Assembly (NCBI RefSeq): GCF_008629685.1
Contig: NZ_VWSF01000013.1
Coordinates: 62,001 to 126,000, forward strand
Direction: 5' to 3'
Origin: Adhaeribacter rhizoryzae
GTDB taxonomy: Bacteria; Bacteroidota; Bacteroidia; Cytophagales; Hymenobacteraceae
DNA length: 64,000 bases
A model generated the notes under the pieces. That model was not told the origin of the DNA, made no database searches, and saw nothing but the letters and a program-made list of their open reading frames with translations. Positions 2,970-31,042 of the stretch are shown here, piece by piece. Positions within the stretch are counted from its first letter, which is position 1. Every line of letters starts with the position of its first letter. The position numbers were made by a program, and so were the translations under genes.

Positions 2970-3758
2970 ATGCAAGACAAAGAAATAAGCAGTTTAAAAG
3001 AGCAATACCAAGAAGAATGGGATTTCTATTTTAGTAATGTTGATGATATTTTTTCCTCTATTGCTGTTGATCTAGGATTAATAAAAATTGCACCAGTTAA
3101 GACGCAGCCCAATGTTCTTTGGATAACAATAAAAATGAATGACCAAAGAACAGATGGTCTCTCCTCATCAGGTGAGTTTGAGGTTCTTTCCGCCATCGAG
3201 GATATACTAGTTGAAAATATTAAAGCTGATTTTGAAGCAACTCATGTTGGCAGATTAACAGCTAATGGTTACCGCGACATCTACTTTTATGTTGGAGAAA
3301 CTACCCACGTAGAGAAAGCCATTTCTGAAGCAATGCTGCGGTTTCCGGATTATGAATATGAGTACGGAACGAAATTAGATGAGGAATGGAACGGGTTTTT
3401 CAATTTTTTATATCCCTCACCTTGGCAACTCCAAAGCATCCAGAATAGAAGAGTAATTGATAATTTGGAAGAAAACTGTGATTCGTTAATAAAAGAGAGA
3501 CCTGTTGATCACTGGATATACTTCAAATCACAAACTGACAGAGAAGCATATCTTGCAAAAGTAACAGAAGAAGGATTTATGGTGATTTCTCAAGAGTTTA
3601 TAGCTGAAATGGTCGATTTCCCTTACTCTTTGCACATTAGTAGAATAGACAAAGTTGACCAGAGCAGCATAGATGATTGTGTATACTTTCTTTGGGAATC
3701 AGCACAAGAACATAACGGTGACTATGACGGTTGGGAAACATCAATCGAGACTAATTAG
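2970..3758 (+). CDS. DUF695 / RraB-like two-domain protein
   Basis: Cytoplasmic acidic protein of 262 residues. The first half (residues 10-130, starting EEWDFYFSNVDD) resembles DUF695. The second half (residues 165-255, with DREAYLAKVTEEGF and a C-terminal HNGDYDGWET) resembles the RraB/DUF1260 fold named after an RNase E inhibitor. This domain pair occurs in many Bacteroidota and Firmicutes proteins of unknown role. Codon use differs from neighbours: seven of nine arginines are AGA while flanking genes prefer CGG/CGC, and the gene is visibly more AT-rich, so recent acquisition is likely. No toxin partner or immunity gene is seen next to it. An RNase-regulating role would be speculation. Confidence 0.7.
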   Translation: MQDKEISSLKEQYQEEWDFYFSNVDDIFSSIAVDLGLIKIAPVKTQPNVLWITIKMNDQRTDGLSSSGEFEVLSAIEDILVENIKADFEATHVGRLTANGYRDIYFYVGETTHVEKAISEAMLRFPDYEYEYGTKLDEEWNGFFNFLYPSPWQLQSIQNRRVIDNLEENCDSLIKERPVDHWIYFKSQTDREAYLAKVTEEGFMVISQEFIAEMVDFPYSLHISRIDKVDQSSIDDCVYFLWESAQEHNGDYDGWETSIETN

Positions 3759-29285: not shown

Positions 29286-29590
29286 GAGGAAATTAGTTTA
29301 GGTAAAAACAAATTAAATAAAGCTGTTTACTCTCAAAACTCAATAAAGGTATGCTGCTGTCATAAAAATTATGGTTTAGCGGGCGTAAAATAAGCTAAAA
29401 ACCAAGCCGAAAAAATTACAATTATTACGGGCTTTATAAAATTAATTAAATATTCCGGTAAATTGAAACAGACTGGCATAAACAATATCGGCTATTGAGA
29501 GCAAACCCGCAAGCAGACATTTACGGATTACTAGTACATGTGAAAATCTTTAGCCTAACCTATTCATAAAAGAATAATTCTAAATCAGTA

Positions 29591-29957
29591 ATGCTGCTAC
29601 TTTGTATTAAGGGTATTTTTTTTTCGCTTACGGGTATTTGGCCATTTATTCATTTAAAAGGCTTTTTGTGGATTACTGGCCCTAAAAAATAGGAGCAGTC
29701 TTGATTATGGCAATAGGACTTACCTGTTTGGTGGCGGATTTCCGGTGGGAGTTTAATGCTGCCTGTTTACCTTGGCCTTAAGCAGCGATTTAGGGTTAAT
29801 GGCTACAGCTGTTTATTATACCAAGTACGATATAATTGGGGATGTGTATTTATTAGATGCTGCCGCCGAAGCCAGACTTTTATTAACCCAGACGGTTACT
29901 TTTTTAAGCATAAAAATTATTTTACAAAGCATTAATAGTCAATATTTTATATTTTAA
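29591..29957 (+). pseudogene. frameshifted remnant of a small multi-helix membrane protein
   Basis: Three consecutive frames together rebuild most of a roughly 110-residue membrane protein. Frame one (29591-29692) reads GIWPFIHLKGFLWITGPKK and then a stop. A second frame continues KIGAVLIMAIGLTCLVADF until a stop near 29782. A third frame continues LALSSDLGLMATAVYYTK and DIIGDVYLLDAAAEARLLL. The pattern (WITGPK, then a helix, then VYLLDAAAE) fits a family of short hypothetical membrane proteins as I remember it. At least two frameshifts and a short deletion after GPK make it non-functional. Confidence 0.6.
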
Positions 29958-30063: not shown

Positions 30064-30094
30064 TTTGAACCTTAAGGTTTAATTTTTACTTTAG
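30064..30094 (+). promoter_or_regulatory. Bacteroidota-type promoter with ideal spacing
   Basis: TTTG at 30064-30067 is followed after exactly 19 nt by TACTTTAG at 30087-30094, one mismatch from TAnnTTTG. This is the only place in the window where I found both elements at consensus distance. Predicted transcription start is close to 30100. Confidence 0.55.
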
Positions 30095-30188
30095 TAAATA
30101 GTAGCGAGTGCTACAGCTTACCGGCTGAATCCATAAGGTGCTTGGAGCCCCCTGTAAGAGATGTTGAACGTAAAGAAAGGAGGTCTAA

Positions 30189-30257
30189 ATGTCTAGTCCG
30201 AAACAAATTTTGTCAAGCCTGAATCATGTTGTACCTTCAACTGGTTTAAAGTTTTAA
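30189..30257 (+). CDS. candidate 22-residue micro-ORF with strong Shine-Dalgarno
   Basis: ATG at 30189 is preceded by AAAGAAAGGAGG, with AAGGAGG ending 6 nt before the start: a textbook Shine-Dalgarno. The peptide begins MSSPKQIL and ends PSTGLKF, with LNHVVPS in the middle; it is basic and has no membrane segment. An overlapping 11-codon ORF (30161-30196, starting MLNVKKGG) covers the ribosome site and ends just past this ATG, an arrangement seen in translationally coupled leaders. Function unknown; it may be a regulatory peptide or merely a ribosome-binding decoy. Confidence 0.45.
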   Translation: MSSPKQILSSLNHVVPSTGLKF

Positions 30258-30369
30258 ATCAGGTTTTTGCCTGATAGACAAAACTCAACCTGGTTCTTTA
30301 GATCTTATTTTTTAAGATTGCCGGTCTGCAAAACAGATTGGTGGCTTGGTAAGATTTTTAGGATTTATT

Positions 30370-30421
30370 ACCTGATTGCTGTGCTGGCGTATCTACCGGC
30401 TGGCAATCAGGTATTTTCTTT
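30370..30421 (+). terminator. plus-strand terminator of the micro-ORF transcript
   Basis: ACCTGATTGC (30370-30379) pairs with GCAATCAGGT (30403-30412), followed by ATTTTCTTTTT. The T-rich side is on the plus strand; the minus side lacks it, so it belongs to the plus-strand transcript rather than to the NlpC/P60 gene. Confidence 0.75.
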
Positions 30422-31042
30422 TTATAGCACTCTTCTTACTTGTAAAAATCGCTTTTCGTAGCCCGTACTATCTACCTTGCTTATTTTTACGCCTCCCTGG
30501 CGCGTTGCAGAAGAGGCATGCACAAATTCTACGGGTTGGCCGGGTTCCGTAATAACAACCCCCACGTGTCCTGGCGTAGTATCATTTTCGTCGGTTCCGG
30601 TAAAAACAATTAAGTCGCCCTTCCGGGCTTCAGTTAAAGGTACTTCTTTCCCTTCCTGCATCAGCATAGCCGATGAATGCGGTAATTTTATGCCGTATTT
30701 TTGATAAATGTGGTAAACAAAACCGGAACAATCGAAACCCTCGCAGGTAATACCGGCTGGTAAGTAAGGCGTACCAATTAAGCTCAAGCCATAACTTACA
30801 ATGCTATCGGCCAGCAAAGCTTGTGTTATTGGCAATTTGGCCGGTTGTTTTTTCTGTTTAAATATCCGCGAAAAAAAATCACCACTTTTCTCTGGGTCAA
30901 TTCCGCCGTTCCGGCTGCTATCAGAATAAGTTTGCGGCATCTCGGAAGCCAGGTTCTCGTGCCGGATATTTTCTTTGTTCCAGAGGCCGTAGGCCAGTAA
31001 AAGTACTATTAGGCTGCCAAATATAATCCAGGCTAATTTCAT
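30422..31042 (-). CDS. NlpC/P60 family cell wall hydrolase
   Basis: Membrane-anchored cysteine peptidase of 206 residues that cleaves D-Glu-DAP-type bonds in peptidoglycan peptides. Residues 1-22 form an uncleaved or signal-anchor helix (WIIFGSLIVLLLAYGLW). The catalytic domain covers residues 85-200: the Cys in CEGFDCSGFVYHIY, the His in PGHVGVVI, and the third polar residue around FVHASSATR. A short linker rich in polar residues separates anchor and domain. No SH3 or LysM module is present, so it is the minimal form. Confidence 0.9.
   Translation of the reverse strand: MKLAWIIFGSLIVLLLAYGLWNKENIRHENLASEMPQTYSDSSRNGGIDPEKSGDFFSRIFKQKKQPAKLPITQALLADSIVSYGLSLIGTPYLPAGITCEGFDCSGFVYHIYQKYGIKLPHSSAMLMQEGKEVPLTEARKGDLIVFTGTDENDTTPGHVGVVITEPGQPVEFVHASSATRQGGVKISKVDSTGYEKRFLQVRRVL

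Follow-up and report, generated by a model that had tools for sequence, protein, structure and literature searches.

A free-standing RNA with an extended Shine-Dalgarno sequence, a micro-ORF and a covarying long-range helix in Adhaeribacter rhizoryzae and its relatives

In a stretch of 64,000 nucleotides from Adhaeribacter rhizoryzae (the window), we identified a vertically inherited, free-standing RNA gene whose 22-codon micro-ORF follows an extended Shine-Dalgarno (SD) sequence and provides one strand of a long-range helix with the 3' end of the predicted transcript. Coding constraint on the micro-ORF and covariation in the structure together support a dual coding and structural RNA. Ribosomes whose anti-SD is free may further gate the translation of this RNA and compete with the helix in doing so, a reading of the whole unit to which we give an even chance. 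Bacteroidota ribosomes retain the anti-SD yet hide it, and this RNA places an SD of the rpsU class at a second, separate locus in Cytophagales whose sampled rpsU genes are without one.

Results

The RNA unit and its elements

The unit occupies positions 30064-30424 of the window on the plus strand, flanked by two leftward genes, one for a DUF2147 protein and one for an NlpC/P60 protein, and the transcript predicted from the sequence is about 320 nt long. Its elements are as follows.

30064-30094, plus strand: promoter, TTTG (30064-30067), N19 and TACTTTAG (30087-30094), read from the sequence
30101-30114, plus strand: P1 hairpin GUAGC-GAGU-GCUAC, five pairs, at the predicted 5' end
30117-30158, plus strand: P2, CUUA (30117-30120) with UAAG (30155-30158), enclosing a small CCA/UGG hairpin (30131-30145)
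30174-30184, plus strand: extended SD AGAAAGGAGGU (also written AGAAAGGAGGT), from its duplex energy with the 16S tail
30189-30257, plus strand: micro-ORF MSSPKQILSSLNHVVPSTGLKF, ATG at 30189, 22 codons, stop ending at 30257, from ORF translation
30194-30199, plus strand: 5' strand of P3a, UAGUCC, codons 3-4, UCC pairing with GGA and AGU with AUU of 30361-30365
30205-30219, plus strand: 5' strand of P3b, AAAUUUUGUCAAGCC, within the micro-ORF, forming a 15-bp covarying helix with 30343-30357
30343-30357, plus strand: 3' strand of P3b, GGCUUGGUAAGAUUU, partner of AAAUUUUGUCAAGCC
30361-30365, plus strand: 3' strand of P3a, GGAUU, part of a conserved AGGAUU, from duplex energies
30370-30424, plus strand: intrinsic terminator, ACCUGAUUGC / GCAAUCAGGU hairpin at about 30370-30412 with a T-rich tail to about 30424

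The promoter, 5' hairpin, stem, SD, 22-codon ORF, terminator and two leftward flanking genes that the earlier note had described are thus present in the sequence. Its spacer of 6 nt between SD and ATG is 5 nt when counted from GGAGG, and the GTTGAA/TTCAAC pairing that it placed around the ribosome site is lost in most of the 30 aligned relatives. P3, the long-range helix, had been overlooked.

TTTG-N19-TACTTTAG is presumably a promoter of the Bacteroidota type, and TTTG/TTGAAC and TA..TTTA-like boxes are visible across the aligned loci of the family. The terminator is absent from the list of a simple terminator scan with a loop limit of 8; relatives carry other hairpins in the same place. The folding energy of the RNA was better than that of 100 of 100 dinucleotide shuffles (z -4.46). 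Transcription and translation of the unit are likely.

Two further observations concern the upstream region. By eye, broken frames at 29590-29957, between the DUF2147 gene and the RNA, look like the decayed equivalent of a plus-strand ORF of 171 aa that occupies this place in Adhaeribacter aquaticus (L004/L188). An AUGU at 30161-30164, about 12 nt 5' of the SD, is invariant in the 30 aligned loci and reads UUGU in L075. An upstream ORF starting from this AUGU was rejected, as its frame and stop vary among loci by inspection and L075 is without an AUG there.

The SD of the micro-ORF is of the strength found on rpsU

The 16S tail of this genome, TCACCTCCTTTCT, forms a duplex of -17.5 to -18.3 kcal/mol with the SD of the micro-ORF. 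The motif GAAAGGAGGU is present in all 30 aligned loci and, over 66 loci chosen by an SD-like pattern, the median SD energy was -17.7 kcal/mol, with 65 of the 66 at or below -13. The exception, L078 from a Cytophagales MAG (G113), has an SD of -8.2 kcal/mol. This locus (3588-3753) combines a degraded SD, GAAAGGTGC, with a kept peptide and P3, and makes a natural test case unless it reflects an assembly error.

Such strength is unusual in its setting: the 47 window ORFs called mechanically with 100 aa or more have a best SD of -8.9 kcal/mol and a median of -2.5. Genome-wide, AAAGGAGGT-N2-8-ATG occurs at seven sites, as against one for the reversed control, and the six sites other than the micro-ORF open frames of 2 to 51 aa. 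The rpsR gene for bS18 (G000:C1:742822-742974, L240) carries the SD AAAAGGAGG at -12.5 kcal/mol, in a group that seldom uses SDs, so that the SD of the micro-ORF is the strongest rather than the sole one. According to PMC9976891, extended SDs (-14 to -21, 9-13 bp) mark rpsU in Bacteroidia; we took about -13 kcal/mol or stronger as a strong SD, following the < -13 given there, and the micro-ORF SD lies within the pairing energies of rpsU-type targets by this threshold.

According to the same paper, rpsU alone has an obvious SD in Flavobacterium johnsoniae and is better read by ribosomes with an exposed anti-SD, which are a minority; rpsU is also preferred by ribosomes that lack bS21, and the paper's two criteria for rpsU autoregulation hold in only about 20% of Cytophagales, chiefly in Cyclobacteriaceae. 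The rpsU gene of A. rhizoryzae lies elsewhere than the micro-ORF, which encodes a 22-aa peptide and not bS21, and has no strong SD (-4.9 kcal/mol); its bS21 has Tyr at position 54, and Y54 is named in the discussion of anti-SD occlusion in PMC9976891. An rpsU SD of -13 kcal/mol or stronger was found in 0 of 29 sampled carriers of the RNA as against at least 16 of 61 sampled non-carriers, in a non-random sample (29 of the 54 carriers and 61 other genomes, among the genomes listed) where the 16 is a lower bound, the start being misplaced in several non-carriers (for example L144, with GAGAGGAGGT after the chosen start). The Fisher test for this comparison (p = 0.001) ignores kinship, and the pattern follows clades. 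Named carriers, Cyclobacteriaceae and Marivirga MAGs included, gave 0 of 12 with a best energy of -6.9; at least two of these 12 (Rhodocytophaga, AVDCRST_MAG56) are also within the 29. Since 45 of the 61 sampled non-carriers have neither a strong rpsU SD nor the RNA, the RNA is no simple replacement for an SD on rpsU.

Base pairing of the RNA with the rpsU leader was considered as a direct link and rejected: in 24 carrier genomes, a crude comparison of long duplexes gave none beyond shuffles (mean z 0.11). In family f11, whose sampled genomes lack the RNA and a strong rpsU SD alike, a search for an equivalent yielded 53 pattern matches in 31 genomes, compared with 34 when the reversed control was used, with no recurrent small ORF among the 30 loci listed.

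The micro-ORF is under coding constraint

The micro-ORF, of 20-23 codons, is uninterrupted in all 60 distinct loci, starting with ATG in 55 and GTG in 5. These 60 are the 77 matches in L001-L087 to an SD-like pattern, to which the SD variants of the relatives L069, L070, L072 and L078 had been added, less 17 identical ones; none was removed for ORF length. Length differences between loci are whole codons, and the peptides of relatives include MSSSPKQILPSLSNVVRFTAGRA, VSSPNQILSSVINVSNSTGVGF, MSSPKQVLSNTTNHLTGVGF and MSSPKQILSKSTALTKSTGVES. Within the best-sampled peptide group (28 loci), pS was 0.176 and pN 0.049, and the third position held 67% of the differences, with no comparable pattern in the two shifted frames. 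The third-position bias was seen in both halves of the ORF (283 of 382 and 586 of 943 differences in 21 loci). Over all 60 loci pN/pS was 0.61, presumably because RNA structure constrains the sequence as well. An ORF open in every locus, biased in its own frame only, is probably translated. Three loci of the family (L019, L029, L030) have a GTG start, a differing P3b sequence and the peptide MSNPSKNVSSLAHVSTVNRVEAC, with the pairing kept.

A long-range helix covaries across lineages

P3, in which 30194-30219 pairs with 30343-30365 over 15 bp plus 5 bp, is the main structure of the RNA and closes codons 3-12 onto the 3' end just before the terminator. Across loci, UARUCC (codons 3-4) faces GGAUU, and codons ~6-11 face the segment just upstream of GGAUU. 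UARUCC, and AGGATT downstream of the ORF, were each found in 30 of 30 aligned loci; being nearly invariant, P3a shows no covariation, and as it was also required for inclusion it carries little weight by itself. We scored P3 on 53 distinct segment pairs from 68 loci (15 identical or unmatched ones were dropped), each needing UARUCC and AGGAUU, which makes P3a paired by construction; in three loci with two AGGAUU the better-pairing one was used. The mean duplex energy of the native pairs was -22.75 kcal/mol, compared with -17.75 for all swaps, -14.79 for swaps between lineages and -10.77 for shuffled 3' segments, and 0 of 10000 permutations reached the native mean. The 50 loci with a single candidate 3' segment gave the same result. 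In P3b, 12 of 14 pairs showed two-sided changes, in 1 to 18 loci each, and one position was mismatched in 23 of the 53 loci.

The stems near the 5' end are also maintained. In P1 all five pairs are standard in 27 of 30 loci and one is broken in 3, and hairpins with other stem sequences and a 4-nt loop lie at roughly this position in other families; under a best-hairpin rule, which picked another hairpin in some loci, the score was reached in 39 of 53 loci and in 190 of 1060 shuffles. The outer pairs of P2 changed on both sides in 4, 9, 9 and 11 of 30 loci, with 0-8 of the 30 broken or gapped. Ensemble predictions placed over half of the P3 positions in pairs in 44 of 53 loci and hardly any P3 in the distant L191 and L192. 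In the same predictions, the mean unpaired probability of the SD was 0.30 and exceeded 0.5 in 0 of 51 loci, the partners being the 5' leader or UARUCC. The SD is mostly paired in these ensembles and so does not seem to be simply displayed.

These data bear on two simpler accounts. The unit could be an ordinary small-protein gene, its peptide the sole product, its strong SD serving high expression and its helix only stabilising or tuning the mRNA, and bS21 and a free anti-SD playing no part. Coding constraint and the conserved promoter and terminator agree with such a gene; SD use is nevertheless rare in the group, both among the ORFs of the window and according to PMC9976891, and a comparison of families shows a preserved helix and a varying peptide, most variable in its C-terminal half. 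We consider an ordinary gene rather unlikely. That same divergence of the peptide, the covariation of P1, P2 and P3 and the near-universal strength of the SD would suit a mainly noncoding RNA acting as a sponge or assembly checkpoint by binding the 16S 3' tail, its ORF just positioning the ribosome. A start and stop preserved in every distinct locus and a third-position bias confined to the ORF's own frame speak against it, and we judge a noncoding binder improbable. Dual coding and structural function, the reading we prefer, accommodates both the constrained frame and the covarying helix.

The RNA gene is free-standing and vertically inherited

A DNA search of 59 genomes found the element in 35, its own included, and in 34 of 37 genomes of the window's family; its own genome gave one match. 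A covariance model, one of the checks that the earlier note had proposed, was built from 30 loci. At E <= 1e-6 it found the RNA in 45 of 45 genomes sampled from the family (Adhaeribacter, Pontibacter and relatives) and, with these counted, in 54 of the 291 genomes from the order. The nine carriers outside the family belong to f5 (7 of 8 sampled genomes), f17 (1 of 1) and f20 (1 of 10); part of the matched genomes, that of f17 among them, had supplied sequences to the model, and those of f5 and f20 had not. Both the model and the patterns lean on the SD, so that members without one would escape them. The model also gave a second, weak match in the genome of A. rhizoryzae (E 0.097); four weak matches inspected in the range E 0.0006-0.1 (L079-L082) were unlike members and were set aside. 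The conservation in relatives on which the earlier note had staked its proposal, whether of peptide, pairing or SD, is borne out, through the 60 open ORFs, the covarying P1, P2 and P3 and the kept SD.

A scan of GTDB species, with a pattern that does not fit the peptide as it occurs in the largest genus (g5), returned 17 named records. They comprise Pontibacter (8), Adhaeribacter aquaticus, Rhodocytophaga aerolata and Xanthocytophaga flavus, and MAGs of Cytophagales (three), Marivirga (1) and Cyclobacteriaceae (3). In a phylum sample, 4 of 395 genomes matched under strict filters, all from the window's family; another pattern, matching 1 of the 395, does not suit all genera of the family and is uninformative on absence. 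No match was found for the element in plasmids, for the pattern in viral contigs or for the peptide in Pfam. The window and seven relatives' loci gave 0 Rfam matches above the gathering threshold, five weak ones all falling well under their gathering scores. A literature search whose scope left out most subscription papers and all preprints found no description of the RNA or the peptide. A mobile element was rejected on the single copy in the genome and the lack of plasmid and viral pattern matches.

Of 36 loci compared, 19 have DUF2147 as the upstream neighbour and 19 have NlpC as the downstream one, all from the family. Elements outside the family are more diverged and have other neighbours, which are common only to close relatives. 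An own promoter and terminator, a single copy and neighbours not kept outside the family indicate that the RNA acts alone and not as a leader.

The mRNAs of type I toxins such as hok and AapA1 are closed by long-range 5'-3' pairing, and in them, as here, the early coding region is helical with the 3' end. A toxin-like messenger silenced by such closure would account for a small peptide under a long-range helix. It is very unlikely given that the peptide does not resemble a membrane peptide (five peptides had mean hydropathies from -0.35 to 0.37), that the gene is inherited as a single copy at a conserved place in most sampled family loci without plasmid or viral matches, and that promoter-like sites were not above chance and no antisense promoter was seen, in a scan by a sigma-70 rule, which leaves out promoters of the Bacteroidota type. 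A role as leader peptide or attenuator for a gene downstream, suggested by a short ORF before a structured RNA and terminator and by a co-directional next ORF (>= 80 aa) in 5 of 36 loci, is scarcely credible when that ORF is convergent in the window and 31 of the 36 loci and unrelated between families.

Discussion

Our comparison suggests that the RNA resembles an extended-SD messenger other than rpsU, and that it also resembles dual-function RNAs. SgrS and others are dual-function sRNAs that encode a peptide, and the RNA is like them in being a predicted stand-alone, short, structured transcript with a conserved short ORF. Here, in contrast, the ORF forms part of the main helix as one of its two strands, and target pairing was tried for the rpsU leader alone, with no signal. 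It shares SD pairing energy and length with the extended-SD rpsU mRNA of F. johnsoniae, in a group where ordinary SDs are mostly ignored. Unlike that mRNA, it encodes a peptide of 20-23 aa instead of bS21, has covarying long-range structure and occurs where the sampled rpsU genes have no strong SD.

We propose the following course of events, in which the gating, the function of the peptide and the output are all inferred. In most 30S subunits the anti-SD would be hidden by bS21, bS18 and bS6, and the RNA would accordingly stay mostly untranslated, closed by the long-range helix. Subunits without bS21, their anti-SD exposed, would bind the extended SD and read the micro-ORF, and the helix would open. 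Position +6 from the ATG lies in the usual footprint of an initiating ribosome; because P3a starts at +6 from the A of the ATG, initiation and P3 would compete. The output, the least certain step, might be the peptide, the freed 3' segment or a titration of bS21-less subunits, and might report or correct ribosome composition.

Three readings had been suggested in the earlier note: a regulatory peptide, a dual-function RNA and a sensor of free anti-SD. Coding constraint and covariation support the dual coding and structural RNA, though not by way of the GTTGAA/TTCAAC pairing. The idea of a sensor gains from the strength of the SD and from the want of a strong rpsU SD in sampled carriers, its function being conjectural. 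In its boldest form, which we put forward tentatively and think doubtful, the RNA would be a free-standing sensor of ribosome composition: the micro-ORF would be read only by bS21-less 30S subunits, the helix opened, and the freed RNA or peptide would regulate in trans. The RNA would here bear the extended SD that in sister lineages belongs to rpsU, turning cis autoregulation into a trans signal.

The RNA and its peptide appear to be an unannotated family. Their presence makes the targets of specialised ribosomes directly testable in those Cytophagales whose sampled rpsU genes have no strong SD of their own.
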